Source: Rubrivivax sp. (GTDB lineage: Bacteria; Pseudomonadota; Gammaproteobacteria; Burkholderiales; Burkholderiaceae_C). From it: a stretch of 64,000 nt of DNA. The DNA is taken from NCBI GenBank assembly GCA_030653505.1, contig JAURZK010000089.1, forward strand, positions 1 through 64,000, given 5' to 3'. The notes beneath the pieces are model-generated. The model saw only the letters and a program-made list of their open reading frames with translations, was not told the DNA's origin and ran no database searches. The position numbers and the translations under genes were made by a program. Position 1 is the stretch's first letter. Each line of letters opens with the position of its first letter. This document shows positions 19,557 through 46,698 of the stretch, one piece after another.

Positions 19557-20648
19557 ATGACCGAGACCTTCTACGAAGTCATGCGCCGGCAGGGCATCAC
19601 CCGCCGCAGCTACCTCAAGTTCTGCAGCCTCACGGCGGCGTCGCTCGGTCTCGCACCGGCCTTCGCACCGCGCATCGCGCATGCTCTCGAGACCAAGCCG
19701 CGCACCCCGGTGCTGTGGCTGCACGGCCTGGAGTGCACCTGCTGCACTGAAGCCTTCATCCGCAGCGCGCACCCGCTGGCCAAGGACGTCATCCTGTCGA
19801 TGATCTCGCTCGACTACGACGACACCATCATGGCCGCCGCCGGCCACCAGGCCGAGGCCGCGCTCGAACAGGTGATGAAGGAATACAAGGGCAACTACAT
19901 CCTGGCCGTGGAAGGCAACCCGCCGCTGGGTGAAGACGGCATGTACTGCATGCCCGGCGGCCGCCCCTTCGCTGAAAAACTCAAGCACGTGGCCAAGGAC
20001 GCGATGGCCGTCATCGCCTGGGGTTCGTGCGCCAGCTGGGGCTGCGTGCAGGCCGCTAAGCCCAACCCGACGACCGCGGTGCCGATCAACAAGGTCATCA
20101 CCGACAAGCCCATCGTCAAGGTGCCGGGCTGCCCGCCCATCCCCGAGGTGATGACGGCCGTCGTCACCTACATCGCGACGTTCGGCCGGATCCCCGAGCT
20201 CGACCGCCAGGGCCGGCCGAAGATGTTCTACAGCCAGCGCATCCACGACAAGTGCTACCGCCGGCCGCACTTCGACGCCGGCCAGTTCGTCGAGCAGTGG
20301 GACGATCAGGGCGCCAAGGAAGGCTACTGCCTCTACAAGATGGGCTGCAAGGGCCCGACCACCTACAACGCCTGCAGCACCACGCGCTGGAACGAGGGCG
20401 TGAGCTTCCCGATCGCCAGCGGCCACGGCTGCATAGGCTGCAGCGAAGACGGCTTCTGGGACAAGGGCTCGTTCTACGACCGGCTCACCAACATCACGCA
20501 GTTCGGCATCGAGTCCAACGCCGACAAGGTCGGGCTCGTGGCCGCCGGGGTCACCGGCGCCGCGCTGGTGGCGCACGCCGCGGTCAGCGCCATCCAGCGC
20601 GCGTCCCACCGCAGCAGGACCCAGGCCGACAACAAGATGGAGAGCTGA
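19557..20648 (+). CDS. hoxK: O2-tolerant membrane-bound [NiFe]-hydrogenase, small subunit
   Basis: 363 residues. A Tat signal (ITRRSYLKF, residues 14-22) ends near AHA-LETKP around residue 44. The protein carries three Fe-S clusters that pass electrons from the NiFe site. The proximal cluster region reads LECTCCTE (C60, C62, C63), and GSCASWGC (C158, C163) follows. The two extra cysteines, C62 and C163, are the hallmark of the [4Fe-3S] cluster that gives group 1d hydrogenases O2 tolerance. A C-terminal helix near 330-350 anchors it to the membrane and HoxZ. The start ATG was chosen because it begins just ahead of the Tat motif; the frame is open upstream. Confidence 0.97.
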
Positions 20649-20651
20649 ATC

Positions 20652-22445
20652 ATGTCCGTCATCGAAACCCAAGGCTTCAGCCTCGACAACAGCGGCAAGC
20701 GTGTCATCGTCGACCCCATCACCCGCATCGAAGGCCATCTGCGTGTCGAGGTCAACCTCGACGACAAGAACGTCATCCGCAACGCCATCAGCACCGGCAC
20801 GATGTGGCGCGGGCTGGAAGTGATCCTCAAGGGCCGTGATCCGCGCGACGCCTGGGCCTTCGTCGAACGCATCTGCGGCGTCTGCACCGGCGTGCACGCA
20901 CTCGTTTCGGTGCGGGCGGTCGAAGACGCGCTGAAGATCAAGATCCCCGACAACGCCAACATCATCCGCAACCTGATGCATGCCACGCTGTATGCGCAGG
21001 ACCACCTGGTGCACTTCTACCACCTGCACGCGCTGGACTGGGTCGACGTCGTCAGCGCACTGAGTGCCGACCCGAAGAAGACGAGCGAACTGGCGCAGAG
21101 CATCAGCAACTGGCCGATGTCGTCGCCAGGTTACTTCCGCGACCTGCAGAACCGCCTGAAGAAGTTCGTCGACAGCGGCCAGCTCGGGCCCTTCCGCAAC
21201 GGCTACTGGGGCCACCCGGCCTACAAGCTGCCGGCCGAGGCCAACCTGATGGCGGTGGCGCACTACCTCGAAGCGCTCGACTTCCAGAAGGAGATCGTGA
21301 AGATCCAGACCATCTTCGGCGGCAAGAACCCGCACCCGAACTGGCTGGTGGGCGGCGTGCCCTGCTCGATCAACCTCGAAGGCGTGGGCGCCGTCGGCGC
21401 CATCAACATGGAACGCCTGAACATGGTGTCGAAGATCATCGACGACACCATCAACTTCATCGACAACGTCTACATCCCCGACCTGCTGGCCATCGCCTCG
21501 TTTTACAAGGACTGGGGCGCCATCGGCGGCGGCATCTCGAGCCAGAACCTGCTGTGCTACGGCGAGTTCCCCGACATCGCCAACGACGACAGCAACAACA
21601 GCCTGCTGATGCCGCGCGGCGCCATCATCAACGGCAAGCTCGGCGAGATCCAGCCCGTCGACCTGAAGGACCCCGAGCAGATCCAGGAATTCGTCGACCA
21701 CAGCTGGTACAAGTACGCCGACGGCACCAAGGGCCTGCACCCCTTCGACGGCGTCACCGACCCGAGCTTCGTGCTCGGCGCCGGCACCAAGGGCACCAAG
21801 ACCGCCATCGACCAGATCGACGAGAGCGCCAAGTACTCCTGGGTGAAGTCGCCGCGCTGGCGCGGCCACCCGATGGAAACCGGCCCGCTGGCGCGTTACG
21901 TGCTGGGCTATGCGATGGGCAAGCCCGAGTTCAAGGAGCCGGTGGACATGGTGCTGAAGAAGCTCGACGTGCCGCTGGAAGCCCTGTTCAGCACCCTGGG
22001 CCGCACCGCGGCCCGCGGCCTGGAATGTTCGTGGGCGGCGCACAAGATGCGCTACTTCTTCGACAAGCTGATGGCCAACCTGAAGAACGGCAACTTCGCC
22101 ACCGCCAACATCGACAGCTGGGAACCGCGCACCTGGCCGGCCACCGCGCAAGGCGCCGGTTACTGCGAGGCGCCGCGCGGCGCCCTGGGCCACTGGATCA
22201 AGATCAAGGACACCAAGATCGACAACTACCAGTGCGTGGTGCCCACGACCTGGAACGCCAGCCCGCGCGACAGCAAGAACCAGATCGGCGCCTACGAGGC
22301 CGCGTTGATGAACACCCAGATGGCCAAGCCCGACGAGCCGCTGGAGATCCTGCGCACCATCCACAGCTTCGACCCCTGCCTGGCCTGCGCCACGCACGTG
22401 ATGTCGCCTGAAGGTGAAGAGATCACGCGCGTCACGGTGCGCTGA
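20652..22445 (+). CDS. hoxG: Membrane-bound [NiFe]-hydrogenase, large subunit
   Basis: 597 residues. It holds the NiFe(CN)2CO active site. The nickel ligands are in RICGVCTG (C75, C78) and [10 protein letters not shown] (C576, C579). The residues after H582 form a 15-residue tail that a dedicated protease (HoxM, two genes on) removes after nickel insertion. It has no signal peptide and is exported with HoxK. It begins three bases after the hoxK stop. The length is normal for group 1d enzymes. Confidence 0.97.
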
Positions 22446-22461: not shown

Positions 22462-23145
22462 ATGGGCAACCACAGCAAGTTCATTCCGGTCTACGTCTGG
22501 GAAGCGCCGGTGCGCATCTGGCACTGGGTCATGGTGCTGGCCATGGTGGCGCTGTGCGTCACCGGCTACCTGATCGGCGCGCCACTGGCGTCGGTGGGTG
22601 GCGAAACCAGCGACCGAGGCCTGTTCGGCGACATCCGCTTCGTGCACTTCGCAGCGGGCTACCTGTTCGCAGTGATGTTCCTCATGCGTGTGATCTGGGC
22701 CTTCATCGGCAACCGGTTCGCGCGCGAGATCTTCACGATGCCGGTCAGGATGTTCAGCCGGCCGTTCTGGTCGGCGCTCGGCGATCAGGGCAAGTACTAC
22801 CTGTTCATGCGCCGCGAGTCGGTGCCCTACCAGGGGCACAACCCGCTGGCCATGACGGCGATGTTCTTCATGTACGTGCTGGGCACGGTGTTCATGATCA
22901 TCACCGGCTTCGCGCTCTACGGCGAAGGCACGGGCATGGGCAGCTGGTCCTACACGCTGTTCTCGTCGTGGGCGCTGCCCCTGCTGGGCTACAGCCAGAA
23001 CGTGCACACCCTGCACCACCTGGGGATGTGGTACCTGATCATCTTCGCCATCGTGCACATGTACATGGCCGTGCGGGAAGACATCTTCACCGACGAAACG
23101 GTGGTCAGCACCATGATCAACGGCTGGCGGGTGGCCAAGAAGTGA
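22462..23145 (+). CDS. hoxZ: Hydrogenase cytochrome b subunit
   Basis: 227 residues, four membrane helices. Histidines suited to two b-type haems are in VRIWHWVMV, VHFAAGYL, HTLHHLGMW and IVHMYMAV. It anchors HoxKG at the periplasmic face and passes electrons from H2 to the quinone pool. The ATG follows GGGAGA by a few bases. It starts 17 bp after hoxG, and its stop codon overlaps the GTG of hoxM. Confidence 0.95.
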   Translation: MGNHSKFIPVYVWEAPVRIWHWVMVLAMVALCVTGYLIGAPLASVGGETSDRGLFGDIRFVHFAAGYLFAVMFLMRVIWAFIGNRFAREIFTMPVRMFSRPFWSALGDQGKYYLFMRRESVPYQGHNPLAMTAMFFMYVLGTVFMIITGFALYGEGTGMGSWSYTLFSSWALPLLGYSQNVHTLHHLGMWYLIIFAIVHMYMAVREDIFTDETVVSTMINGWRVAKK

Positions 23146-23765
23146 CGCAACCCGCCGTGCTGGTGCTGGGCATCGGCAACCTGCTCTGGGCCGACGAGGG
23201 CTTTGGCGTGCGCTGCGTCGAGGCGCTGCACCAGCGTTTCGAGTTCCCCGCGCACGTGCAACTCGTCGACGGCGGCACGCAGGGCATGTACCTGCTTGAC
23301 TTCGTCTGCTCGTCGCCGCGCGTACTGGTGCTCGACGCCATCGACTTCAAGCTCGCGCCCGGCACGCTGAAGGTCTACCGCGACGCCGAGGTGCCGGTGT
23401 GGTCGGACACCATGATGAGCCTGCACCAGGCGACCTTCCAGGAACTGCTGTCGCTGGCGCGGCTGCGCGACCGTTTCCCCGAGAAGATCACGCTCATCGG
23501 CGTGCAGCCCGACGTGCTCGACGACCTGGGCGGCAGCCTGAGCCCGCGCGTGAAGGCCCGCGTCGACGAGGCCGTGGCGCTGGCGGTGGCCGAGCTCGCG
23601 GCCTGGGGCATTCCGGCGCAGCCGCGTGAACGCGCCCCCGAGGCACTGAGCCCTGGCGCGCTGGCCCTGCAGGCCTATGAAAGCGAGCGCCCGTCGGCCG
23701 ACGCGGCCTGCCGCATCGGCGACGCGCGCTTCCTCAATCCGGCCCAGACCGCAGGCGCCACCTGA
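23142..23765 (+). CDS. hoxM: Hydrogenase maturation endopeptidase
   Basis: 207 residues from a GTG that overlaps the hoxZ stop (GTGA). HoxM/HupD proteases cut the C-terminal tail of the large subunit after nickel is inserted. GIGNLLWADEGFGVRCVEAL has the conserved Glu/Asp nickel-sensing residues, and VLVLDAIDF and SLHQATFQELL follow. The C-terminal 40 residues are a variable extension. The overlap with both neighbours indicates translational coupling. Confidence 0.93.
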   Translation: MTQPAVLVLGIGNLLWADEGFGVRCVEALHQRFEFPAHVQLVDGGTQGMYLLDFVCSSPRVLVLDAIDFKLAPGTLKVYRDAEVPVWSDTMMSLHQATFQELLSLARLRDRFPEKITLIGVQPDVLDDLGGSLSPRVKARVDEAVALAVAELAAWGIPAQPRERAPEALSPGALALQAYESERPSADAACRIGDARFLNPAQTAGAT

Positions 23766-24085
23766 TGTGCATCGGCATGCCGCTGCAGGTGGTGGCGCTC
23801 GAGGAGCATCACGCCTGGTGCGAGGCCGACGGCCAGCGTGAGCGCCTGGACATGGCGCTGGTGGGCGCGCAGCCCATCGGCACCTGGGTGCTGGCCTTCC
23901 TGGGCAGCGCCCGCCAGGTGATGGGCGCCGAAGAGGCCACGCAGGCCCGCGCCGGGCGCGCCGCGCTGGGTGCCGTGCTGGACGGTGGCAGCGACGTCGA
24001 CGCCTTCTTTGCCGATCTCGTCGGGCGCACCCCGGAACTGCCCGAACACCTGCGGCCCACCACGTCGGGGAAGATCGCGCAATGA
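23765..24085 (+). CDS. hoxL: HypC-like hydrogenase chaperone HoxL/HupF
   Basis: 106 residues. It starts MCIGMPLQVV, and the essential Cys2 is present. HoxL is a HypC paralogue specific to the O2-tolerant membrane hydrogenase and protects or delivers the Fe(CN)2CO unit to HoxG. It is longer than HypC (82 residues, encoded at 31204). Its ATG shares a base with the hoxM stop codon. Confidence 0.92.
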   Translation: MCIGMPLQVVALEEHHAWCEADGQRERLDMALVGAQPIGTWVLAFLGSARQVMGAEEATQARAGRAALGAVLDGGSDVDAFFADLVGRTPELPEHLRPTTSGKIAQ

Positions 24086-24561
24086 ACGAGACACCGGTTC
24101 ATCCGCCCGCCCCCGATCTGCACCCCCTCGTGGCGCGGCTGGTGCGCGAGACGGGCGCGGCCGTGCTGACGGCCGAGAGCTTCGACGCGTGGGCGCAGCA
24201 GCCCGGCCCGGCGATGGTGGTCTTTGCCGAGGACCCCGAGCGCTACAAGGAAACGCTGGACCTGGCCGTCATCGTGCCCGAACTGCACGCCACGGGCGGC
24301 CGGCGCTTCCGCGTCGGCCTGCTGCCACCAGCAGCTTCGCGCGCCATCGCGCCGCGCTACGGTTTTGCACGCTGGCCGGCCTTCGTGATGCTGCGCGATG
24401 GGCAGTACCTGGGGGCCGTCGACGGCATCCGCGACTGGGACGTCTACACCGCCGAGCTGCTGCGCCTGCTGGCCGCCGCGCCCACGCGCCCGCCCACCGT
24501 GGGCATACCGGTGAAGGCCGCCGACGCACCCGATGGGTCCGGCGCAGCGGCCTGCCACTGA
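24082..24561 (+). CDS. hoxO: HoxO/HupG/HyaE thioredoxin-fold assembly protein
   Basis: 159 residues with a thioredoxin-like fold but without the CXXC active site (YGFARWPAFVMLRDGQYLG takes the later strand-turn). HyaE/HoxO proteins bind the Tat-signal-bearing small subunit and are needed in aerobic H2 oxidisers. The start overlaps the end of hoxL by four bases. The C-terminal 35 residues are low-complexity. Confidence 0.88.
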   Translation: MNETPVHPPAPDLHPLVARLVRETGAAVLTAESFDAWAQQPGPAMVVFAEDPERYKETLDLAVIVPELHATGGRRFRVGLLPPAASRAIAPRYGFARWPAFVMLRDGQYLGAVDGIRDWDVYTAELLRLLAAAPTRPPTVGIPVKAADAPDGSGAAACH

Positions 24562-24585
24562 GCCCTCCCGCCCTGGAGCCCGCCC

Positions 24586-25455
24586 ATGCAGCCCTTCCCC
24601 ATCCCCGTGCGCAGCCTGATGCCCGAACCCACGGACGCCGTGGCCTACATGCCCATGCCGCGCGAGATGAATACCTTCGAGATGCCGCGTCTGCCCGAAC
24701 CCGGGCCCGACACCGACGCCAATGACGTGCTGGGTGCACGCGACGTGCTCGACGCCTTCCTCGGCCACATGCAGACCTGGCTTGACGCCGGCGGTGAACT
24801 GCCCGCGCTCGATCTCGCCAGCCTGCCCGCCGGCGTGCTGCGCGTGCTGAACGAGACCCTGGGCGAAGGCGAGGTCAGCGCCATCGTCGAGGCCGGGCAC
24901 GAGATCCGCGTCCAGGAGACGGTGTTCTCCGGTGTCTGGCGCCAGCAGCACATCCAGGGCACGCAGCTGATGCACGACTTCCTGCTCGCCGCGCCGATAC
25001 CGCCGGTGGTGGGTGCGCTGGCGGCCGAGCGCGCGGCGCCGCAGTTGCGCAGCCTGCCGCTGCCGCCGGGCGCGATGAACGTGCCCGCGCTCGTCAACGA
25101 ACTGCAGGAGGCGATGGACCGCAGCGGCCCCGAGACGCCGGCGCACGTCATCAACCTGACGCTGCTGCCGCTGTCACCCGAGGACGCGGCGCACCTCGAC
25201 GCCCTGCTCGACGGCGGCTCGGTGGTGGTGCTGTCGCGCGGCTTCGGCAATTGCCGCATCAGCAGCACGGCGGCGCGCAACGTCTGGCGCGTGCAGTACT
25301 TCAACAACATGCAGACGCTGATCCTCAACACCATCGAGGTCGCCACGATGCCCGCGGTGGCGCTGGCCGCACGCGAGGACCTGCTGGAGACCCACGGCCG
25401 CCTGGCCGACCTGGTGCAGTGGATGGGCGACTCGGTCAGCCCCGCGGCCGCCTGA
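24586..25455 (+). CDS. hoxQ: HoxQ/HupH/HyaF hydrogenase assembly protein
   Basis: 289 residues. Its order in the operon and the blocks VLRVLNETLGEGEVS and GNCRISSTAARNVWRVQYFNN identify it as HyaF/HupH. It helps to assemble the Fe-S clusters of the small subunit and is found with O2-tolerant hydrogenases. A GGAG ribosome site precedes the ATG. It starts 24 bp after hoxO and lies 6 bp before the rubredoxin gene. Confidence 0.9.
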   Translation: MQPFPIPVRSLMPEPTDAVAYMPMPREMNTFEMPRLPEPGPDTDANDVLGARDVLDAFLGHMQTWLDAGGELPALDLASLPAGVLRVLNETLGEGEVSAIVEAGHEIRVQETVFSGVWRQQHIQGTQLMHDFLLAAPIPPVVGALAAERAAPQLRSLPLPPGAMNVPALVNELQEAMDRSGPETPAHVINLTLLPLSPEDAAHLDALLDGGSVVVLSRGFGNCRISSTAARNVWRVQYFNNMQTLILNTIEVATMPAVALAAREDLLETHGRLADLVQWMGDSVSPAAA

Positions 25456-25461
25456 GCGCCC

Positions 25462-25671
25462 ATGACCGCGCCCGACCCCGCGAGCAGGCTGTCGACGATA
25501 GGGCCCCACACGCGGCTCGAGTGCAAGATCTGCTGGACGGTCTACGACCCGGCGCTGGGCGACGATGTCTGGCAGATCCCGCCCGGCACGCCCTTCAGCG
25601 AACTGCCGCCGCACTGGACCTGCCCGAACTGCTCTTGCGAGAAGCAGCACTTCCTTGTCCTCGATGAATGA
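25462..25671 (+). CDS. hoxR: Rubredoxin of the hydrogenase operon
   Basis: 69 residues. The rubredoxin knuckles CKICWTVYDP and CPNCSC supply four cysteines for one iron. HoxR/HupI is needed for correct small-subunit cluster assembly under oxygen, possibly as an electron donor. Its last codons overlap hoxT. The length is typical, with a short N-terminal extension. Confidence 0.95.
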   Translation: MTAPDPASRLSTIGPHTRLECKICWTVYDPALGDDVWQIPPGTPFSELPPHWTCPNCSCEKQHFLVLDE

Positions 25672-26200
25672 GGCAGCGGTCCCGTCACGCCCTCCGCTGC
25701 CCTCACCCGCATCGGCGCTGCAGACGCGTTTCGAGCACATCCGCCAGCATCAGATGGCCGGTGTGCCCATGCTCAACCCGGCGCTGCGTGTGCAGGCCCT
25801 GGGCTTCCGCCCCTGGTCCGAACACTGGCTGGGCGTGCTCGTCACGCCCTGGTTCATGAATCTGGTGCTGTTTCCGCGGATGCACGAGCATTGGCAGCGC
25901 GTCGGCGAACGCGAGAGCCGGCATTACGTCTTCCCGGCCGGTGTGTTCGAGTTCATCGGCAGCCACGACGCCGAGCTGGGCGACTACCAGGCCTGCTCGC
26001 TGTTTTCGCCGATGTTCGAGTTCGCCGACCACGCCGCCGCGCACGACACCGCCGTCGCTGCGCTGGCGGCACTGTTCGATGCCGCGCACCGGCCCGGCAG
26101 CGACGCGCCGCCGCAGGATCCACCTGCACCCGCCAAGCCGGCCCTCAGCAAACGCGACTTCCTCTTCGGCGGCGCCGCGCGGGGCCCGCGTGAGCCTTGA
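25664..26200 (+). CDS. hoxT: HoxT/HupJ/HybE-type assembly chaperone
   Basis: 178 residues from an ATG eight bases inside hoxR. The [NiFe]-hydrogenase chaperone HybE family is recognised by MAGVPMLNPALRVQALGF, WSEHWLGVLVTPWFMNL and FPAGVFEFIG. It binds hydrogenase precursors before export. The C-terminus has the conserved SKRDFLFGG motif. It overlaps hoxV by 11 bases. Confidence 0.9.
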   Translation: MNEAAVPSRPPLPSPASALQTRFEHIRQHQMAGVPMLNPALRVQALGFRPWSEHWLGVLVTPWFMNLVLFPRMHEHWQRVGERESRHYVFPAGVFEFIGSHDAELGDYQACSLFSPMFEFADHAAAHDTAVAALAALFDAAHRPGSDAPPQDPPAPAKPALSKRDFLFGGAARGPREP

Positions 26201-27305
26201 AGGCGAACTGCAGGTCGCGCTGCACCTGCGCGCCGGTCGCGTCGCCGCCGTCGACATCACGTCGACGCGGCCTGACGTCGCATCGCGACTGCTGCAGGGC
26301 CGGCGCAGTGCCGAGGTGCAGGCGGCCGTGCCGCTGCTGTTCTCGGTCTGCGCGGGCTCGCAGGCGACGGCCAGCCGCCTGGCCTGCGCCGCGGCGGCCG
26401 GCGTGACACCCGACGCCGCGGCACTGGCAAGGGCCCGCGCGGCACTGGCCGAAGAGACGGTGCGTGAGACCACATGGCAAGTCCTGCTGCACCAGCCGCG
26501 CTGGCTGGACGAAGCGCCGTCGCCCGCGGCCACGACGGCGGCACGCGCCGCGCAACGCTGGCGCTGGACTGGCGCCGCCACCGCAGACCGCAGCTGCGAA
26601 CCCGCCCGGACCATCGCGCACGCCGTCTTCGGCTGCAGCGCGCAGGACTGGTTGCGGTTGACCACCTGGCCGGCGGTCGCCGCATGGGCCGCTGCCGTAG
26701 CCGCGCCCGCCGCGCGCTACCTGCACGGGTTGGCCGCGTCCGCGGTGGACGTCGCGGCGGGCGCGCACCCCAGCCCGGCCCCGCCATTGCTTCCGACCCC
26801 CACCCCCGGCTGGCTGGCCTCGGTGGCCGCAGCGGCTGCGGCCGAACCGGCCTACACGCGCCGCCCGCACTGGCAGGGCCATCCCGCCGAAACCGGCGCT
26901 CTGGCGCGCCTGCAGGGCGACCCGCTGCTCGGCAGCGCCGCACTGCCCGCCCCGTCGCGCGCGCTGGCACGCCACGTGGCCCGACTGCGCGAACTGGCGC
27001 TCTTGCTGGAAGGACGGCTGCAGCCCGGTGTGGGCGCGCTGAGCCTGGCGCCGGGCAGCGGCGTAGGCTGGGCCGACAACGCGCGTGGCCTGCTGGTGCA
27101 CCACGTGCAGCTCGACGGTGACCGTGTGCGCCTGTACCGCATCGTCGCGCCCACCGAGTGGAACTTTCACCCGCAGGGTACGCTGGCTGCCGCCCTCGTC
27201 GGCGCCCCCGCCGCCGACACCCATGCCGCTCGGCAGCTGGCCCAGCGCCTGATAAATTCGCTCGACCCTTGCGTGAGCTGCCGTGTCGAAGTGACCCATG
27301 CATGA
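26190..27305 (+). CDS. hoxV: HoxV/HupK scaffold protein
   Basis: 371 residues from a GTG overlapping hoxT. HoxV is a distant paralogue of the hydrogenase large subunit. It ends in [15 protein letters not shown], which copies the second nickel-ligand motif of HoxG, and it is thought to hold the Fe(CN)2CO unit during assembly. The N-terminal region keeps the SVCAGSQ block in place of the first motif. It overlaps hypA by 8 bases. Confidence 0.88.
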   Translation: MSLEGELQVALHLRAGRVAAVDITSTRPDVASRLLQGRRSAEVQAAVPLLFSVCAGSQATASRLACAAAAGVTPDAAALARARAALAEETVRETTWQVLLHQPRWLDEAPSPAATTAARAAQRWRWTGAATADRSCEPARTIAHAVFGCSAQDWLRLTTWPAVAAWAAAVAAPAARYLHGLAASAVDVAAGAHPSPAPPLLPTPTPGWLASVAAAAAAEPAYTRRPHWQGHPAETGALARLQGDPLLGSAALPAPSRALARHVARLRELALLLEGRLQPGVGALSLAPGSGVGWADNARGLLVHHVQLDGDRVRLYRIVAPTEWNFHPQGTLAAALVGAPAADTHAARQLAQRLINSLDPCVSCRVEVTHA

Positions 27306-27639
27306 AATGTCCCTGGCCGAAAGCGTGCGCGAGATCGTGGAGGAGACGGCGCGCGCCAACGGCGCACGCCAGGTGAGCGTGGTGCGGCTGGAGATCGGCC
27401 GCCTCTCGCAGGTGGAGGTCGACGCGATGCGATTTGCCTTCGAGGTGGTGCAGCGCGGAACGGTGGCCGAAGGCGCACGGCTGGAGATCGTCGAGACCGA
27501 CGGCACGGCCTGGTGCATGCTGTGCTCTGCACCCGTCGTCATGCAGCGGCGTGGCGATCCGTGCCCCGTCTGCCAGAGCTTTCAGTTGCAGGTCACCGGC
27601 GGCGACCGCATGCGCGTGATGGACATCGAGATCGAATGA
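27298..27639 (+). CDS. hypA: Nickel insertion protein HypA
   Basis: 113 residues. The N-terminal MHEMSLAE motif gives the nickel-binding His2. The zinc site is formed by CMLC and CPVC. HypA works with HypB to deliver nickel to the large subunit. The ATG lies inside the last codons of hoxV, joining the hox and hyp parts of one operon. Confidence 0.95.
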
Positions 27640-27664
27640 CCCCCCGGACCCACTGGAGAACCCC

Positions 27665-28795
<1,131 letters not shown>

Positions 28796-28806
28796 GCGGC
28801 GACCCG

Positions 28807-31200: not shown

Positions 31201-31203
31201 ACG

Positions 31204-31452
31204 ATGTGCCTGGCCTTGCCCGTGCGGGTGGTGGAACTGGTGGGTGAATGCGACGCCATCGTCGACCTGGGCGGCATCCGCAAGCAGATCTCGCTGGCGC
31301 TGCTCGACGGCGTGGTGCCAGGCGACTACGTCATCCTGCACGTCGGTTATGCGCTGTCGCGCCTCGACCCCATCGAGGCTGCGCGCACGCTGGCACTGTT
31401 TGCCTCGGCCGGCGAGCCCACCGCGCCTGCCGCCACCGAGCCTGCCGCGTGA
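31204..31452 (+). CDS. hypC: Hydrogenase maturation chaperone HypC
   Basis: 82 residues, starting [12 protein letters not shown] with the conserved Cys2 that holds iron during Fe(CN)2CO assembly with Hyp[17 protein letters not shown] is the family C-terminal block. It starts three bases after hypF and overlaps the GTG of hypD. Confidence 0.96.
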
Positions 31453-33756: not shown

Positions 33757-33770
33757 TTGTCCGATGTCAA
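33757..33770 (+). promoter_or_regulatory. FNR/Anr-like dyad upstream of the cytochrome module
   Basis: TTGTCCGATGTCAA in the 212-bp gap after hypE, 101 bp before the next start. The right half-site is perfect and the left has one change. It suggests that the cytochrome genes have their own promoter and are not just read through from hyp. Confidence 0.4.
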
Positions 33771-39123: not shown

Positions 39124-39132
39124 CCGAAGTCA
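39119..39132 (+). promoter_or_regulatory. Perfect FNR/Anr-like dyad before the monohaem cytochromes
   Basis: TTGACCGAAGTCAA, a perfect TTGAC-N4-GTCAA dyad that overlaps the hypX stop codon. It is 143 bp before the first cytochrome gene. No other protein gene fits in the 151-bp gap. Confidence 0.55.
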
Positions 39133-39274
39133 AAGTTCAGGTCGGGCCCGAGCAAAAGCGCCCTGCCGGCCGGCAGAATCCGGCCTGTGCTGGGCCCCTA
39201 CGGTCAACCGAGTCGATAGGGAAACAGTTCATAGAGGTACGGACCTTTCCGCCAGACGCACATGGAGCACCTGA

Positions 39275-39935: not shown

Positions 39936-39970
39936 GAGTTCGAAGCCCCGGCCCTGCTCGGGGGCCCTGC

Positions 39971-40014: not shown

Positions 40015-40129
40015 TTGCGCGCACTGCTCCCTAGGCTGCAACTGTCTGTTCGGCGGCGCACATAGCTGCGGCGAAGTTGCCACACCCCTGAACCCCAGCG
40101 TTGCAGTTCAACGGTGAGCCGCCTTAAGC

Positions 40130-40143
40130 CTGACTTAAGTCAA
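40130..40143 (+). promoter_or_regulatory. FNR/Anr-like dyad upstream of the decahaem gene
   Basis: CTGACTTAAGTCAA, a TGAC-TTAA-GTCA palindrome with a perfect right half-site. It is 178 bp before the start of the outer-membrane cytochrome, leaving a long leader. Confidence 0.5.
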
Positions 40144-40179
40144 GTTTTCGCGGGGTTGCACTCCTAAACTCGTTCGCAC

Positions 40180-40320
40180 GTTGGCGGCTGTGACTCCCGG
40201 GGAACTGGTGACTGCATCCGCCCAACGGTCGATTTCGACGTACCGGGGCCTGGCGCCAATCAACAAGACGCCCCACCTCGATGCTGGAATCACTGGGCAC
40301 TTTCCCCGAGGAGGCTATTG
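40180..40320 (+). other. Structured leader of the decahaem cytochrome gene
   Basis: The leader can fold into a long stem (40180-40187 with 40218-40226, one bulge), a small hairpin GTCGA-TT-TCGAC (40228-40239) and a GGGGC/GCCCC pairing (40245-40249 with 40270-40274). It ends in a strong GAGGAGG ribosome site at 40309. No known riboswitch consensus was recognised. No gene is visible in the 40015-40320 gap beyond this leader and the dyad. Confidence 0.3.
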
Positions 40321-43071
40321 ATGGGCATCACCAAGAATCGCAGCTGGCTCGCGCTGGCTGCTGCCGGCCTTCTGGCCGTAACACTGTCCGGCTGCGGAGA
40401 TGGCGACACCGGCCCCGCCGGACCCGCCGGAACCCCCGGCACAGCAGGGCCTGCCGGCCCTGCCGGTCCAGCAGGTCCTGCGGGCCCCGCAGGCACCGCC
40501 ACATCGGCGGTCAATCTGGCCACCATCACACCCGAAGCGTGGGAGGCGGCCAACTTCAAGGCCGCGGTCACCAAGGTCACCCTGGCCAGCCCGACGGTGG
40601 TCGAGTTCACCATGACCGACGCACTCGGCAACCCGGTGCTCGGCGTCGAGGGGCTGAAGTCGTCGGGCCAGTACCGCAACTTCGCGTTCTCCGTCGCCAA
40701 GCTGATGCCGCGCACCGATGCCAAGCCCAGCCACTGGGTGAGCTACATGGTGACGAACGCCGGCATGACAGCGGCAAGCACGCCAGGTACCGACAACACC
40801 GGTACGCTGGAAGCCATCGCCGGTACGCCCGGCGCCTACAAGTACACCTTCCAGCGTGACATCCCGGCTGTACAGGCCAAGGTCGACAGCTTCACCTACA
40901 CCGGGAACAACCGCAAGGCAGACCTGGGTGACGTCAGCTTCGCCCCGACCCTGCCGCATCGCCTGGTGATCCAGATCGCGGGTGCCGCTCCCGGCACGGG
41001 CACCAACACACCGACAGGCGCCACGCTCACCCCGGCCGTGAACCTGGTCAACCCGGTGAACGTGACCTACGACTTCACTCCGTCCACGGGTGCGGCCATC
41101 CCGGCGTCCGCCCTGACGCGTGAAGACGTCGACATCTCCACCTGCAACGTCTGCCACGAGAAGCTCGCCTTCCACGGCGGCGGTGCACGCGTCGAGGTGA
41201 AGTACTGCGTCACCTGCCACACCGACCAGCGCGCCTTCGGTCGCGCCCAGGCGGTGTCGGTCGCGGGTGCCTTCCCGGCGCTGACGGAGACCAAGACCGT
41301 CAATGCCGCCACCGGCATCACCAGCTACAGCTATTCGCCGCAGACCTATGTGGCCGACGGCGAGGTGTCGGGCAACTTCACCACGCTGATCCACAAGATC
41401 CACAACGGCACGGCGCTGGTCAAGGACAACTACCACTACGCCGGCATCGCGTTCAACAACAAGGGCTTCTCGAAGCTGGGCGGCGGTCAGCGCATGTGCA
41501 CGACCTGCCACGCCGGCGCCGCGGCGACCAACGCCACCAACCACATCAACCTGCCCAGCCGCCAGGCTTGCGGCGCCTGCCACGACGGCATCGACTGGGA
41601 AACCGGCGGTGGCTCGACGCTGGCCGACAAGGCCGCGGCAACGGCCGTGGGTTCCGTGGTGGCGACGACCGGCCACATCGGCCGCGCCCAGTCCGACGAC
41701 TCGCGCTGCGTGCTCTGCCATACGCCCGAGTACAACAAGATCGACCACCAGATGGAGAACATCACGCCCAACAATCCGGTCATCGCGGACGGTCTGGCGA
41801 CGTTCACCTACGACATCAAGACGGCCACGGTCAACGCGAGCAACGACCTGATCATCGAGTTCGGCATCAAGAAGCGTGTCTACCCCTCGACCACGGATGA
41901 ACTGGTCACGTTGGCAGCCGCGGCTCCGAGCGTGACGGCGCCGCTGGCCGGCTTCACGGGCAGCCCGAGCTTCCTGCTGGCCTACGCCCTGCCCCAGGAC
42001 GGCATTGCCGCCCCGGTGGACTACAACAACCTCGGTCGTCCGTCTGCACAACCGCGTAGCGTCTCTATCGCGCAGTTGCTGAGCACCAACAACGCTGCCA
42101 ACGGCACACTCGCCGCGTCCAGCACCGCGGGCTACTACATCGCCACCGTCAAGGGTGCCGGTGCATGGACCTTCCCGGTCGGCGCCAAGCTGCGTGCCGT
42201 GGCACTGCAGGGCTACTTCACCCAGATCACCGCCCCGGCCACGCCGACGGCAGCGATCGCCCGGCATGCCATCTCGGTGGTCAAGTCGGTGACCGGTGAC
42301 GTGGTCCGCCGCACGGTGGTCGACGACGAGAAGTGCGCGAACTGCCACGAGTGGTTCGAAGGTCACGGCGGCAACCGCGTCAAGGAAACCCAGGTCTGCG
42401 TGGTCTGCCACGTGCCTGGCCTGGCCACCAGCGGCCGTGGTATCCCGGACAGCCTGCTGAACACCTGGACCTTCGACAAGGCAGCCACGAAGATCATCAC
42501 CGACTGGGGCTTCGACAAGACGCTGCCCAACGCCGCACTGAAGTTCCCGGTGACGACGAACAACTTCAAGGAAATGATCCACGGCATCCACGCCGGCCGC
42601 GACCGCGTCACACCGTTCCAGGACGCACGTGACCGTTCCAGCAGTGGCGTCATCCAGTTGCTCGACTTCCGCCGCATGGACTTCCCGGGCAAGCTGAACA
42701 ACTGCGAGACCTGCCACGTGACGGCGGCCACTGCGGAGCAGAAGACCTACAACTACGTGCCGGCCAACACGCTCGCGACAACGTTCGAGTCGATCGATGC
42801 CGCCTACGCTGCCGGTATTGCAGGTGGTACGGCAACGCCGGCGATGGCCAAGGCTTCGTTGAACAGTGCCAGCCCGACCGACACCGTGACGACGCCGCTT
42901 GCCGGCGCCTGCGCCAGCTGCCACGACAACACTGCGGCCAAGGCGCACATCACGCTGAACGGTGGCGTGGTGCTGGGAACACGGGCTGCGGCACAGGCCA
43001 GCGGTGGCGAGGCCTGCGCTGTCTGCCACGGTCCGGGCCGCGACTTCGATACGGCCAAGGTCCACAAGTAG
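40321..43071 (+). CDS. OmcA/MtrC-family decahaem outer-membrane lipoprotein cytochrome
   Basis: 916 residues. The lipoprotein signal ends in TLSGC (Cys25). Residues 31-59 are a collagen-like Gly-Pro-Ala repeat. Ten CXXCH motifs are split into two groups of five (first at about 275-463, second at about 672-899), as in the two pentahaem domains of MtrC/OmcA. CNVCHEKLAFHGG followed by YCVTCHTDQR is a family signature. These proteins sit on the outer surface and pass electrons to minerals, electrodes or shuttles. The ATG 6 bp after GAGGAGG is preferred to the TTG before it. A strong terminator follows. Confidence 0.9.
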   Translation: MGITKNRSWLALAAAGLLAVTLSGCGDGDTGPAGPAGTPGTAGPAGPAGPAGPAGPAGTATSAVNLATITPEAWEAANFKAAVTKVTLASPTVVEFTMTDALGNPVLGVEGLKSSGQYRNFAFSVAKLMPRTDAKPSHWVSYMVTNAGMTAASTPGTDNTGTLEAIAGTPGAYKYTFQRDIPAVQAKVDSFTYTGNNRKADLGDVSFAPTLPHRLVIQIAGAAPGTGTNTPTGATLTPAVNLVNPVNVTYDFTPSTGAAIPASALTREDVDISTCNVCHEKLAFHGGGARVEVKYCVTCHTDQRAFGRAQAVSVAGAFPALTETKTVNAATGITSYSYSPQTYVADGEVSGNFTTLIHKIHNGTALVKDNYHYAGIAFNNKGFSKLGGGQRMCTTCHAGAAATNATNHINLPSRQACGACHDGIDWETGGGSTLADKAAATAVGSVVATTGHIGRAQSDDSRCVLCHTPEYNKIDHQMENITPNNPVIADGLATFTYDIKTATVNASNDLIIEFGIKKRVYPSTTDELVTLAAAAPSVTAPLAGFTGSPSFLLAYALPQDGIAAPVDYNNLGRPSAQPRSVSIAQLLSTNNAANGTLAASSTAGYYIATVKGAGAWTFPVGAKLRAVALQGYFTQITAPATPTAAIARHAISVVKSVTGDVVRRTVVDDEKCANCHEWFEGHGGNRVKETQVCVVCHVPGLATSGRGIPDSLLNTWTFDKAATKIITDWGFDKTLPNAALKFPVTTNNFKEMIHGIHAGRDRVTPFQDARDRSSSGVIQLLDFRRMDFPGKLNNCETCHVTAATAEQKTYNYVPANTLATTFESIDAAYAAGIAGGTATPAMAKASLNSASPTDTVTTPLAGACASCHDNTAAKAHITLNGGVVLGTRAAAQASGGEACAVCHGPGRDFDTAKVHK

Positions 43072-43128
43072 GCGAGTGGTTCCAGGGGGCAAGGTGAAGA
43101 ACCGGCCTTGCCTCTACCCACAATACAA

Positions 43129-43154
43129 CCCGGGGGCTCGGCCCCCGGGTTTTT
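43129..43154 (+). terminator. Rho-independent terminator after the decahaem gene
   Basis: A perfect 9-bp stem CCCGGGGGC/GCCCCCGGG with a TCG loop is followed by TTTTT. It lies 58 bp after the stop codon and 24 bp before the next start. The downstream genes must be expressed by read-through or from another promoter. Confidence 0.85.
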
Positions 43155-43177
43155 CATTCCAGGAAGGTCAGCACCGC

Positions 43178-43555
43178 ATGTCCAGCCATCGTCTTCCCCT
43201 CGCACTGATCATCACCGTGCTGTTGCTGGGCGGCAGCCCCTGCGCTGTCGCCCAGCAACCGCAAGGCGCCAACAAGACCCCGGCCAAGGCCACGCCGGCG
43301 GCGAAGCTCAAGCTGGTCGACATCAACAGCGCCAGCCGCGCCGAACTCAAGACCTTGCCCGGCATCGGCGACGCCGAGGCCGAGCGCATCATTGCGGCGC
43401 GCCCCTACCCCAGCAAGGCCAAGCTGGCCGCCGACAAGGTGCTGTCCCTGGAGGCCTATGCGGCACTCAAGGGGCGCATCGTCGCGGTGCAGAAGGCACA
43501 GCCCAAGACCAAGGCGAAACCCAGGCCAGAGACACCGCCCGCCGGCAAGTCCTGA
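43178..43555 (+). CDS. Exported helix-hairpin-helix protein inside the electron-transfer cluster
   Basis: 125 residues. A signal peptide ends near AVAQQ. The core LVDINSASRAELKTLPGIGDAEAERIIAA is the HhH motif of the ComEA/PsbU-like group, and a Lys/Pro-rich tail follows. ComEA binds incoming DNA, but no competence genes are nearby. The protein lies between the decahaem gene and the MtrA-like gene, 41 bp ahead of the latter. A protein-protein or scaffold role in the cytochrome conduit is possible but not shown. AGGAAGG precedes the ATG. Confidence 0.75.
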   Translation: MSSHRLPLALIITVLLLGGSPCAVAQQPQGANKTPAKATPAAKLKLVDINSASRAELKTLPGIGDAEAERIIAARPYPSKAKLAADKVLSLEAYAALKGRIVAVQKAQPKTKAKPRPETPPAGKS

Positions 43556-43595
43556 CCCGCATCCAGCGCACAGACCGACTTACAGGCCCAAACCG

Positions 43596-44546
43596 ATGAA
43601 GATCACCCGCCCCCTCCTGCTCGTGCTGCTGTTGCTCACCGGGTTGTCATGGCAACTCACGGCATCGGCACAAGGCAAGCCGCTGCCCGCGGCGACCGAA
43701 TACAGCGAAGAAGGTGCCGACACCTGCCTGGGCTGCCACGACGAGGATGAAGGCAAGTACAAGGCCAAGGCGCTGTTCAAGACCAAGCACGCGCACCGCG
43801 GCGACAAGCGCGCGCCCTTCGGTGACGGCGGCCTGCAGTGCGAGGCCTGCCACGGCCCCGGTGCGCTGCACGCACGCAACAAGAAGGGCGCGGCCATCAA
43901 CAACTTCAAGGCCGACGGCAAGAACAACCTGGAAGAGCGCAACCAGGTCTGCCTGACCTGCCACGAAGGCACGACGCGCACCGCCTGGCACGCCAGCGCC
44001 CACGAGCGTGCCAACCTGGCCTGCACCGACTGCCACCAGATCCACCAGGAAGCCGACCGTGTGCTGGCCAAGGCCACCGAAGCGCTGGTCTGCCAGAGCT
44101 GCCACAAGCGAACGTTGGCCGACTTCCAGAAGGCCTCTTCCCACCCCGTGCGCCAGGGCAAGATGGCCTGCAGCGACTGCCATGCACCCCACGGTTCCAG
44201 CGCACCGGCGATGCTCGTGAAGGCCACGCTCAACCAGACTTGCTACAGCTGCCACGCCGAAAAGCGCGGGCCGCTGCTGTGGGAACACGCGCCGGTGGCC
44301 GAAGACTGCGCTTCCTGCCACACGCCGCACGGCTCTGTGCGCGCGGCCCTGCTGACGAAGAGCCCGCCGCTGCTGTGCCAGCAGTGCCACACCACGGCCG
44401 GCCACCCGTCGGTGGCGCGCACGGGTGCGGCGCTGCCCGGCGGCACGGACGGCGGCACCGGCTTCCTGATCGCCGGCAGTTGCACCAATTGCCACGTGCA
44501 GGTGCACGGCTCCAACCATCCCGCGGGCGCCAAGCTGATGCGCTGA
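43596..44546 (+). CDS. mtrA: MtrA/DmsE-family periplasmic decahaem cytochrome c
   Basis: 316 residues. A signal peptide ends near ASAQ. Ten CXXCH motifs are evenly spaced (CLGCH, CEACH, CLTCH, CTDCH, CQSCH, CSDCH, CYSCH, CASCH, CQQCH, CTNCH). MtrA is a haem wire threaded into the MtrB barrel, taking electrons across the outer membrane. The length and haem count match Shewanella MtrA (about 330 residues). It is followed 61 bp later by mtrB, as in known conduits. Confidence 0.9.
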   Translation: MKITRPLLLVLLLLTGLSWQLTASAQGKPLPAATEYSEEGADTCLGCHDEDEGKYKAKALFKTKHAHRGDKRAPFGDGGLQCEACHGPGALHARNKKGAAINNFKADGKNNLEERNQVCLTCHEGTTRTAWHASAHERANLACTDCHQIHQEADRVLAKATEALVCQSCHKRTLADFQKASSHPVRQGKMACSDCHAPHGSSAPAMLVKATLNQTCYSCHAEKRGPLLWEHAPVAEDCASCHTPHGSVRAALLTKSPPLLCQQCHTTAGHPSVARTGAALPGGTDGGTGFLIAGSCTNCHVQVHGSNHPAGAKLMR

Positions 44547-44607
44547 CCGGCCCGGCCCGCCGCGTGGCGGGCCCGCCCGGCAACCCCACCGAAACACGGA
44601 ACCCATC

Positions 44608-46698
44608 ATGAAAACACCCAAGCCCCTGCTCATCTTCAGCGCGCTCGGTGCACTGGCCACGGCGTCGGCCAGCCTGGCGGCCGCGGTCGACACCTCGGCC
44701 TGGAAGTGCAGTGCCTGCCCCTTCGAAAAGGGCAGCAGCGGCAGCGTCGATGCAGGCGTCGGCACGGTTTCCGACCGGTCTGCCAAGTTCACCGACATGA
44801 GCGGCCTGGACAAGGGCGGCTACCTGGTGCTGGGCGGCAGCGCGCGCTTCCGCGACGAGGGCGGCTTGTGGGGCAAGCTGACGGCCAGCGAGCTCGGCCT
44901 GGACACCCGTTCGCTGACGGGCCAGATCGGCCGCGAGGGTCTGTTTACCGCCAGCCTGGCCTACGACAACCTGCCGCGCCACTTCGCCGACGGCGCAGCC
45001 ACGCCCTACCTGGGCAACGGCGGCGGCGTGCTGACGCTGCCCGCGGGCTACCCGCAGGACACCACGGCGGCCATGCCGCTGGCCGGCACGCTGCAGCCGC
45101 TGAAGCTGGGCTACGACCGTTCACGCCTGCAAGGCGGCCTGAGCTGGATCGGCAGCGAGCGCTGGACCGTGCGCGTCAACGCCCGCCGCGACGAGCGCGA
45201 CGGCACGCGCCCCGGCGCCGGCGCCTTCTTTGCCACCACGGCGCAGTTGGCGGTGCCGGTGGACCACGTCACCAACCAGCTCGAGGTCTCCGCGTCCTAT
45301 GTCGGCCGGCCCGTACAGGCCACGCTGAGCTACCACCTGTCGAGCTTCAGCAACGGCCAGGCGGCGCTGCGCTTTGCCAACCCCTTCGTCCCGGTGGTGG
45401 CCGGTGCCAGCACGGGCCAGCTTGCGGGCGCCCCCGACAACGAGTTCCACCAGGTCGCCGCGTCACTGGGCTACCAGCTGAACCCGGCCTTCCGCGCCAG
45501 CGCCGACTTCGCCGTCGGCCGCATGACGCAGAACGCCGCCTACCTGCCGCTGACGCTGACGCCCGGCCTGGCCGCCAGCCTGCCGGCGCTGCCAGCGGCG
45601 TCGCTGGACGGCCGTGCCGACACGTTCAACGGCGCCGTGCGCCTGAGCTACGTGACCCCGATCGCAGGCCTGCGCCTGAACGCCAGCTACGCGCGTGACG
45701 TGCGTGACAGCGACAACGTCACCCAGACCTTCCCGTCGGTGGCCACCGACATGTTCGTCGGCCTGCAGCCCGTGACCAACACGCCCCTGAGTTTCTTCCA
45801 GGACCGCGTCAAGGTCATCGCCGACTACCGTGCCAGCAGCAGCCTGAAGGCCAGCGCCGGCGTCGAATACGACACACGCGAACGTTCTTACAGCGAGGTC
45901 GTCACCACGCGCGAGACCACGGTGTGGGGACGGGTCGCGGGGCAGGCGCGCGACGACCTCTCGCTGTCGCTGAAGTTGTCAAGGTCCAACCGCGGCCGCA
46001 CCGACTACGGCGTGAGCACCTGGAACAGCGCGCCGCAGAACCCGCTGCTGCGCAAGTTCAACCTGGCCAAGCGCGACCGCGTCGCAGGCGCCGCACGGGC
46101 CGACTGGACGGCCAGCGAAACGCTGAGCATCGGCGTCGGCATCGAAGGCTCGCAGGACGACTACACCGATTCCGTCATCGGCCTGACCGACGGCCGCAGC
46201 CTCAGCCTGGCCGCCGACGTCGCTTACGCCTTCAGCGAAGCCACCCAGCTGCGCGCCTACGGGCAGGCCGAAGCCGTGCAGACGCACCAGGTCGGCAGCC
46301 AGCTTTACGGCAGCCCCGACTGGACGGGGCGCGTGCGCGACCGCTACACCGTCTTCGGTGTCGGTGCCCGGCACATGGCGATGGACGACAAGCTCGAACT
46401 CGGCGCCGACCTCACCGTGTCACGCTCGCGCAGCCGCACGCTGGTGGACACCGGGGCCGCCACACCACCTTTCCCGGCTGCCACCACGTCGCTCGACCGG
46501 CTGAAGCTGAGCGCGACCTACCAGCTCAAGGACAACCTCTCGCTGATGGGTAGCTTCTGGCACGAACGCTACGACGCGGCCGACTGGCAGCTCGACGGCG
46601 TACAGCCCGACACCGTGCCTTACGTGCTGGCTTTCGGCCAGCAGGCACCGAAGTACCGCGTCAACGTGCTCCAGGTTTCGGTGCGATACAGCTACTGA
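44608..46698 (+). CDS. mtrB: MtrB/PioB-family decahaem-associated outer-membrane barrel
   Basis: 696 residues. A signal peptide ends near ASLAAA. C34 and C37 in WKCSACPF are the CXXC pair seen near the N-terminus of MtrB proteins that support extracellular electron transfer. The rest has alternating strands (LGGSARFRDEGG, GFTASLAYDNL-like turns) of a large barrel of about 26 strands and ends in SVRYSY with a terminal aromatic. It forms the sheath around MtrA. The 3' end overlaps the convergent tlpA-like gene by 7 bp. Confidence 0.9.
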   Translation: MKTPKPLLIFSALGALATASASLAAAVDTSAWKCSACPFEKGSSGSVDAGVGTVSDRSAKFTDMSGLDKGGYLVLGGSARFRDEGGLWGKLTASELGLDTRSLTGQIGREGLFTASLAYDNLPRHFADGAATPYLGNGGGVLTLPAGYPQDTTAAMPLAGTLQPLKLGYDRSRLQGGLSWIGSERWTVRVNARRDERDGTRPGAGAFFATTAQLAVPVDHVTNQLEVSASYVGRPVQATLSYHLSSFSNGQAALRFANPFVPVVAGASTGQLAGAPDNEFHQVAASLGYQLNPAFRASADFAVGRMTQNAAYLPLTLTPGLAASLPALPAASLDGRADTFNGAVRLSYVTPIAGLRLNASYARDVRDSDNVTQTFPSVATDMFVGLQPVTNTPLSFFQDRVKVIADYRASSSLKASAGVEYDTRERSYSEVVTTRETTVWGRVAGQARDDLSLSLKLSRSNRGRTDYGVSTWNSAPQNPLLRKFNLAKRDRVAGAARADWTASETLSIGVGIEGSQDDYTDSVIGLTDGRSLSLAADVAYAFSEATQLRAYGQAEAVQTHQVGSQLYGSPDWTGRVRDRYTVFGVGARHMAMDDKLELGADLTVSRSRSRTLVDTGAATPPFPAATTSLDRLKLSATYQLKDNLSLMGSFWHERYDAADWQLDGVQPDTVPYVLAFGQQAPKYRVNVLQVSVRYSY

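Follow-up and report, generated by a model that had tools for sequence, protein, structure and literature searches.

Why should the genes of an O2-tolerant type of [NiFe]-hydrogenase run directly into those of a predicted conduit for electrons across the outer membrane? The question is raised by a stretch of DNA from a Rubrivivax sp. of the Burkholderiales (contig JAURZK010000089.1, our C30). What we call the window is the whole stretch analysed, the first 64 kb of this contig; the assembly comprises 4.56 Mb in 200 contigs and is 93% complete. Between positions 19557 and 46698 all genes lie on the forward strand, in the order hoxKGZMLOQRTV, hypABFCDE, a cbcL-like gene, a napC-like gene, hypX, two monohaem cytochrome genes, an mtrC-like gene, a gene for a helix-hairpin-helix (HhH) protein, mtrA and mtrB. 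Searches of the window for open reading frames (ORFs) and families found every one of them intact, as a preliminary description of this DNA had listed them. Its tally of 38 CXXCH motifs and one CX3CH motif was exact when we recounted by ORF: 11 in the CbcL-like protein, five and the CX3CH in the NapC-like protein, one in each monohaem cytochrome, and ten each in the MtrC-like and MtrA-like proteins.

We consider it probable that the locus is a respiratory island under FNR-type control that oxidises H2 with an extracellular electron acceptor. The preliminary description had read it as a unit for H2-driven extracellular reduction, or for the reverse reaction. The linkage of the two halves in a subgroup of relatives and the FNR-type boxes on both halves support the idea of such a unit; the direction of flow is a matter that sequence leaves unsettled.

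Linkage of hydrogenase and conduit in relatives

With the CbcL-like protein as query, a pattern-based scan of our species-genome collection returned 26 loci. The window and its relatives make up 14 Burkholderiales loci with a close (at least 67%) 11-haem CbcL, one of which (L028) holds only a fragment. Hox or hyp genes lay within 3 kb of cbcL in 12 of these 14. The two misses were L011, whose genome gave no hoxG match, and the 5 kb contig L028; one more 11-haem copy (G281), on a 7 kb contig without hydrogenase genes, makes the count 12 of 15 when it is included. The position of cbcL varied among the 12. In seven (L005–L010 and L012) it stood between hypD and hypE, and two of these, L009 and L012, had cytochrome genes between hypD and cbcL as well. 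In two more (L004 and the window, where cbcL and napC are inserted together) it came after hypE and before hypX, and in three (L013, L019 and L026) it adjoined hoxQ–hoxR. As a control we took the CbcL loci of the family with 8–9 haems (17 stretches from 16 genomes, 12–20 kb each), and a hox or hyp match was found in 0 of 17. Fisher's test of 12/14 against 0/17 gives P = 6e-7, a guide value only, as the loci are related. These controls lead us to reject an accidental adjacency: judged by conserved gene order, hydrogenase and conduit are not neighbours by chance. The 11-haem CbcL was not matched on plasmids at E 1e-20.

More distant CbcL proteins (at most 59%), in 12 gammaproteobacterial and other loci, mostly stand without nearby hydrogenase genes. 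The exception is L021 of the Steroidobacteraceae, in which a hydrogenase of another lineage lies about 12 kb from mtrB, with HemN-like, cbcL, mtrC and mtrA genes between. This locus points to a second assembly of the same gene combination.

We also followed hoxG and mtrB through a family sample of 399 genomes, 37 with mtrB and 362 without. hoxG was present in 20 of the 37 against 53 of the 362 (P = 2e-7) and, counted by genus, in 14 of 22 against 22 of 119 (P = 4e-5), both without species-tree correction. Among the 20 genomes with both genes, that of the window is the only one in which a single contig carries them less than 30 kb apart; in the other 19 they are more than 500 kb apart on one contig (four) or on different contigs (15, including G204). 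The preliminary description had asked whether the halves might always be far apart in relatives. For most of the family sample (19 of 20 genomes) they are, and for the 11-haem cbcL subgroup, linked in 12 of 14 loci, they are not. Among all genomes compared, a single contig carries hoxG and mtrB no more than 30 kb apart in the window, Rubrivivax sp. A210 (G401, where L075/L076 place hydrogenase and conduit on one contig), G407, G408 and the distant G416. They are about 44–68 kb apart on one contig in G400, G414, G421 and G417, the contig of G417 being without cbcL. In G399 and in G204/G404 each of the two genes has a contig to itself, and both contigs break off within hypE in the former and within hypX in the latter.

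FNR/FixK-type boxes on both halves

FNR/FixK-type regulators have the consensus TTGAYN4RTCAA. We scored a box wherever the 250 nt before a gene contained this pattern with no more than one mismatch. In the window, boxes lie at 19444..19457 in the divergent promoter region of hoxK and a HemN-like gene, at 33757..33770 upstream of cbcL, at 39120..39133 upstream of the monohaem cytochrome gene cyc1 (an exact palindrome) and at 40130..40143 upstream of mtrC. Across the loci a box preceded hoxK in 8/8, cbcL in 13/13, cyc1 in 7/9 and mtrC in 5/5, where shuffled sequences led us to expect 0.03–0.13 per set. A second test of hoxK found the box in all ten island-type hydrogenases, at -106 to -124, against two of eight others, with two more loci unscorable. 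None was found upstream of hoxG, hypF, hypB, napC, hypX, mtrA, mtrB, menA, menG, hypE or hypD (0 of 5 to 11 each). The counts were 1/9 for hypA, 4/8 for an hdrD-like gene and 2/11 for hoxQ, both hoxQ cases (L079 and L087) belonging to the three loci in which hoxQ heads the cbcL group. The letters of the box vary between loci and its two halves stay matched. From these putative boxes we infer that hoxK, cbcL, cyc1 and mtrC are under a regulator of the FNR family, and such boxes would fit use without O2. As each half of the island bears a box in its own right, joint control is likely; that the halves serve each other is not thereby proven.

The boxes of cbcL, cyc1 and mtrC fall at gaps of about 215, 151 and 382 nt, respectively, and a terminator-like hairpin of 11 bp (43127..43151, forward strand) stands between mtrC and the HhH gene. 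We therefore do not call hoxK–mtrB one transcript. Hairpins of this kind were not significantly more frequent than chance would give (11 against 8.3 expected), and a sigma-70 consensus scan of 33500–46900 returned zero sites. Sigma-54 (-24/-12) elements were considered as a common promoter signal and rejected for lack of enrichment (33 found, 41 expected).

The hydrogenase half

The small subunit, hoxK (19557..20648), has a Tat signal (TIGR01409), scores 567.1 against TIGR00391 (cut-off 179.5) and carries six proximal-cluster cysteines (C60, C62, C63, C158, C163 and C192), a pattern that we take to be the signature of a [4Fe-3S] cluster. The large subunit, hoxG (20652..22445; PF00374, E = 2.7e-235), is closest among solved structures to the Salmonella Hyd-5 and E. 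coli Hyd-1 type and then to HoxG of the membrane-bound hydrogenase (MBH), with 1042.7 bits for 4c3o (presumably the Salmonella entry), 936.6 for 3uqy and 877.5 for 3rgw. Both subunits fit the Hyd-1/MBH type, and the predicted enzyme is thus an O2-tolerant-type [NiFe]-hydrogenase of group 1d type. They are followed by hoxZ, a b-type cytochrome (22462..23145; TIGR02125, 209.6, cut-off 121.5), by the maturation genes hoxM, hoxL, hoxO, hoxQ, hoxR, hoxT and hoxV (23145..27305, assigned by family scores and gene order, with zero NCBIfam match for hoxQ), and by hypA, hypB, hypF, hypC, hypD and hypE (27298..33658). HypF was identified by score (TIGR00143, 722.1, cut-off 466.1), the other Hyp proteins by order and by tblastn matches in relatives. 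hypX (37429..39123), with formyl-transferase and enoyl-CoA hydratase domains, stands beyond cbcL and napC.

This half resembles the hup/hyp operon of Rhizobium leguminosarum UPM791, which holds genes for the subunits, a b-type cytochrome, a protease, a series of hupFGHIJK type, hypABFCDE and hypX. In that record (NZ_CP025505.1) HoxG is 72% identical, the counterpart of hypX at the equivalent place is annotated as a hydrogenase maturation protein, and hypE and hypX are 9 nt apart. Since the order is otherwise the same, cytochrome genes have been set into this operon. The island differs in lacking the nickel permease gene hupE, in holding cbcL and napC between hypE and hypX, and in the FNR-type box upstream of hoxK, for which the best match in the Rhizobium record has four mismatches in 300 nt.

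A 39-row HoxG tree placed the island hydrogenases in two supported clades (eight and six rows, both 100/99), apart from a group of 17 rows to which the Rhizobium row and the family's 62–66% rows belong. Within the two clades HoxG is 76–95% identical to that of the window, the 95% belonging to a Leptothrix metagenome-assembled genome (L004). Identities so spread disfavour the view that the interleaved loci are one recent clone. As read from this tree, a single origin of the linkage would be neither supported nor excluded.

From the CbcL-like protein to the cell surface

The cbcL-like gene (33871..35940, with a start at 33871 or 33880) encodes 11 haem c motifs fused to a putative cytochrome b561-like membrane domain, which scores 27.2 against PF01292, below the cut-off of 30.1 (E = 3.8e-6); members of the CbcL/MtoC/MtrH family join a multihaem c domain to a dihaem cytochrome b in the membrane. 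It is followed by the NapC/NirT-like cytochrome (35996..37411; PF03264, 35.1, cut-off 24.1) and, beyond hypX, by the two monohaem class I cytochromes c in an MtoD-like position (39275–39586 and 39630–39935; PF00034). The MtrC/OmcA-type decahaem lipoprotein (40318..43071; TIGR03507, 380.8, cut-off 209.3) precedes a ComEA-like HhH protein (43178..43555; PF12836, E = 1.1e-9), which stands at the same place in relatives and has an apparent signal peptide, read by eye. The MtrA-like decahaem cytochrome (43596..44546; MtrA/DmsE family TIGR03508, 292.2, cut-off 192.2) and the MtrB/PioB-type outer-membrane barrel (44608..46698; PF11854, 503.7, cut-off 23, E = 1.1e-150; TIGR03509, 421.6, cut-off 240.05) complete the series. 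By these family assignments the MtrB barrel and the decahaem cytochromes MtrA and MtrC of an MtrCAB conduit are encoded together.

The MtrC-type lipoprotein of the window has a collagen-like Gly-X-Y run directly after its lipobox. Such a run recurs in the MtrC-type proteins of L006/L076, L007, L012/L077 (two in L077), L016 (one of two), L021, L054, L084 and L088; it was unmatched in both proteins of L056, in L068, in the second MtrC-type protein of L016, and in the truncated proteins of L011, L019 and L060. The run might trimerise these proteins or serve as a stalk. MtrC of the window is 78% identical to that of the nearest relative (L084), 60–64% to those of the clade-B genomes G414 and G408, and 32% to that of Rubrivivax A210 (L076), and this surface cytochrome seems to have been exchanged independently of the remaining island.

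In some relatives a 6-haem cytochrome (L004, 3136–4119) or a 6-haem cytochrome and an NrfD-type membrane protein (L005, 12216–15303) stand between cbcL and napC, an insert resembling a further quinol-cytochrome c oxidoreductase.

Quinone genes upstream

The hox-to-mtrB core named by the preliminary description stands; its extent was drawn too narrowly, leaving quinone genes and the HemN-like gene unnamed. The functional island appears to begin at about 10952. There a gene on the reverse strand (10952..12955) encodes a membrane cytochrome-b-like N-terminus, assigned by eye, fused to an HdrD-like Fe-S protein (CCG domain; PF02754, E = 4.7e-22). This fusion is a recurrent member of the island, with homologues beside napC/cyc or mtrB in L011, L013, L019, L026 and L074. 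It is followed on the forward strand by a menG/ubiE-type methyltransferase gene (15466..16158, start approximate; TIGR01934, 257.6 for 15046–16155, cut-off 158.35), by menA for 1,4-dihydroxy-2-naphthoate octaprenyltransferase (16180..17214; TIGR00751, 127.8, cut-off 102.15) and by a gene for a START/Coq10-like protein of the polyketide cyclase family (17306..17986; PF03364, E = 1.1e-31), which in several relatives lies near menA or hox genes. menB scored over its cut-off elsewhere in the genome, and a genome search for the MqnA/MqnD family of the futalosine route found no match; menaquinone synthesis by the classical route is therefore plausible.

Divergent from hoxK lies a gene for a HemN-like radical SAM protein (18013..19362, reverse strand), a candidate menaquinone C8-methyltransferase of MenK/MqnK type (NF006385, 436.4, cut-off 355). 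Measured against the six MKMT motifs as published (PMC10320005, in the part available to us), it is like MenK/MqnK in having four exactly and unlike it in that QxTxYPLx has one mismatch and NxFxxxxY was not found. A C. jejuni protein of the same clade is reported there as a haem chaperone, and the assignment therefore stays that of a candidate: the protein is possibly a menaquinone C8-methyltransferase. We rejected coproporphyrinogen oxidase as its function: it scores far under the HemN, HemW and HutW cut-offs, and the HemN and HemW motifs are absent. This rejection is weakened by the finding that no canonical HemN scored over cut-off elsewhere in the 93% complete genome. At E 1e-80 the gene occurs in 3 of the 399 family genomes (two over cut-off), all three among the 37 with mtrB (P = 7e-4). 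Homologues lie near cbcL in L013, L016, L020 and L021 and near hoxZ in L061, L071, L082 and L087. According to the accessible text of PMC11707229, methylmenaquinone has so far been reported within the Pseudomonadota only from a few Shewanellaceae, Ferrimonadaceae and Sutterellaceae, and its potential is near -150 mV, that of menaquinone near -80 mV.

A proposed path from H2 to the outside, and competing explanations

In the path that we propose, HoxKG would oxidise H2 on the periplasmic side, and HoxZ would pass the electrons to a low-potential naphthoquinone made with the MenG and MenA of the island, to whose C8 the HemN-like protein may add a methyl group. The 11-haem CbcL-like protein and the NapC-like protein would oxidise the quinol, the two monohaem cytochromes would ferry electrons across the periplasm, and MtrA, inside MtrB, would hand them to surface MtrC for the reduction of Fe(III) or Mn(IV) minerals, humics or an electrode. 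The flow of electrons, its outward direction, the use of menaquinone by HoxZ and CbcL, the methylation of the quinone and the identity of the acceptor are what we infer from the set of genes. The predicted menaquinone genes, CbcL and MtrC favour outward flow, and a low-potential quinone fits the reduction of an external acceptor better than uptake from Fe(II). A boundary at which redox conditions fluctuate would suit an organism with hypX and a Hyd-1-like enzyme.

Several observations weigh against this path. Most of the genomes compared are metagenome-assembled, and the relatedness of the loci means that the linkage counts are not independent. The same hydrogenase occurs in G059 (99% complete) with hypE–hypX uninterrupted, menG–menA downstream and no mtrB or cbcL match, and in G329 with hypD–hypE–hypX uninterrupted and a different mtrB elsewhere. 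G406 (L011) has menaquinone genes and a conduit and no hoxG match. Each half can thus exist without the other, and menaquinone genes accompany both. Boxes precede hoxK in G059 and G329, which have no linked conduit, and cbcL in L011, which has no hydrogenase; they also occur in 4 of the 17 cbcL loci of the 8–9-haem form and in 30 of 928 of the tiled background, and the left half of the cbcL boxes is mostly TTGYY, one base off consensus. In the HoxG tree the rows linked to extracellular electron transfer (EET) form no single clade and are not clearly clustered (7 changes, with 100 of 500 shuffles as low), L090 and L109 being labelled unlinked although their genomes have the hyp–cbcL linkage on another contig (L010 and L008). 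O2-tolerant Hyd-1-like enzymes are described as working poorly when the driving force is low and as adapted to microoxic conditions, and hypX, hoxO, hoxQ and hoxR point to maturation in air, so that electrons from H2 may also reach O2.

Were the conduit to run inward, MtrCAB would take electrons up, with Fe(II), Mn(II) or a cathode as their source, CbcL and NapC would feed the quinone pool, and the hydrogenase would be a second donor or a vent, the whole forming a toolkit for CO2-fixing lithotrophy. In keeping with this, the genome has a PF00016 match to the RuBisCO large chain (true RuBisCO and RuBisCO-like protein being undistinguished). The CbcL relatives MtoC/MtrH, moreover, occur also in Fe(II) oxidisers, a further point that tells against our path, and oxidative transfer has been linked to Ramlibacter lithotrophicus (PMC6295460 and PMC8805035, in the text available to us). 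We nevertheless regard electron uptake as rather unlikely. A menaquinone near -80 mV or lower (PMC11707229, in its accessible text) would be too low in potential to be reduced by Fe(II) at neutral pH unless energy were put in, the boxes on both halves suggest induction without O2, and the window also contains a FrdA/SdhA-like gene. An MtrC on the surface is usual for reducers, but according to the available part of PMC10734462 some genomes of Fe(II) oxidisers have one too.

The two halves might instead share a regulator and no path, as parts of an anaerobic, menaquinone-linked FNR-type regulon in which H2 electrons go to fumarate, sulfur compounds or O2 and the conduit serves organic donors. 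Menaquinone genes are indeed linked to the hydrogenase without EET (in G059, at L052 and L131) and to EET without hydrogenase (in L011, and in L069 of a 61% complete genome), boxes occur on either half alone, and genes of a Psr/Phs-type reductase and a FrdA/SdhA-like protein stand in the same window. Yet cbcL is inserted among hyp and hox genes in three arrangements, closer than co-regulation requires, and a single quinone pool would be common to all, so that electrons could mix anyway. We judge this explanation quite unlikely.

Direct periplasmic wiring, from HoxK or HoxZ to the CbcL and cytochrome chain without quinone, would explain a cbcL inside the hyp operon. It draws on the weak, below-cut-off resemblance of the CbcL membrane part to the HoxZ family (PF01292) and on the 12 loci with cbcL beside hyp or hox genes. 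It seems very unlikely to us, given that hoxZ follows hoxG in the island loci that cover that stretch (none was matched in L021) and that quinone genes are part of the island. An accidental neighbourhood of two unrelated operons, for which the 19 of 20 family genomes with distant or separately placed hoxG and mtrB might speak, is hardly credible beside interleaving kept in 12 of 14 loci and 0 of 17 controls and boxes on both halves.

We thus return to the respiratory island for H2 oxidation with an external acceptor. A larger claim can be put forward tentatively, and we would not give it even chances: that this is a self-contained, modular H2-to-mineral island with its own low-potential methylated quinone of MenG/MenA/MenK type, one FNR-type regulon and surface cytochromes on collagen-like stalks, assembled at least twice, in Burkholderiales with a Hyd-1/hup-type hydrogenase and in Steroidobacteraceae with another.

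Relation to known systems

H2-driven mineral reduction is usually pieced together from scattered genes. A recognisable locus ties H2 oxidation, quinone choice and outward electron transfer together, making the capacity searchable in genomes and testable by single deletions. It also suggests that a hydrogenase that tolerates O2 and is matured in air can be put to use in anaerobic mineral respiration; this would be of consequence at redox boundaries in sediments, aquifers and H2 storage sites. For bioelectrochemistry fed with H2, the locus provides a natural module.

The conduit half has close counterparts in betaproteobacterial MtrCAB clusters, described with mtoC/mtrH (CbcL family), cymA, monohaem mtoD and an HhH gene (Baker et al. 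2022, PMC8805035; PMC6295460; both in the parts available). Shared are the order mtrC–HhH–mtrA–mtrB, a putative CbcL-family quinone oxidoreductase, a NapC/CymA-type protein and a monohaem cytochrome. The island CbcL-like protein differs in its 11 haem motifs and is 33–41% identical to relatives of the 8–9-haem form, and the locus differs in including hydrogenase and menaquinone genes. In the accessible text of PMC8805035 neither is reported as a passenger, and the words 'hydrogenase' and 'hydrogen' have 0 occurrences in its main text; it records MtrCAB in 148 species, states that a recipient must already have menaquinone genes and reports fumarate reductase genes near betaproteobacterial mtrCAB. 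The hydrogenase is like E. coli Hyd-1, Salmonella Hyd-5 and the C. necator MBH in its best solved-structure matches and six-Cys small subunit, and unlike them in that its genomic partner is an extracellular conduit. The preliminary description knew of no locus with both halves contiguous, and no description of a joint hydrogenase–EET locus turned up in the literature searched, which includes PMC10734462 and PMC8516407 in part and few subscription journals. The parts are of known kinds; the union of hydrogenase, quinone genes and conduit is new.

Neighbouring genes

At the start of the window, reverse-strand genes at 379–5691 encode a triple-rhodanese protein with one CXXCH, an NrfD-type membrane protein, a 4Fe-4S protein and a PhsA-like molybdoenzyme. 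The set looks like a Psr/Phs-type reductase of sulfur compounds, and the molybdoenzyme is 82% identical in L074, which has the same island type. No CcoN of a cbb3 oxidase scored over cut-off in the 93% complete genome. Toward the other end, at 58569–61383 (reverse), 54571–57935 (reverse) and 61527–63194 (forward), lie genes for a FrdA/SdhA-like flavoprotein, a FrdC-like membrane protein (by eye, with no Pfam match), a C4-dicarboxylate TRAP transporter and malic enzyme. An FNR-type box stands at 61432 in this region. Directly behind the island, at 46692–53899 on the reverse strand, are genes for TlpA-like and universal stress proteins and for a Cus-like efflux of metals. tlpA and usp follow mtrB in L084 too, a Leptothrix relative whose cus matches are only fragments.

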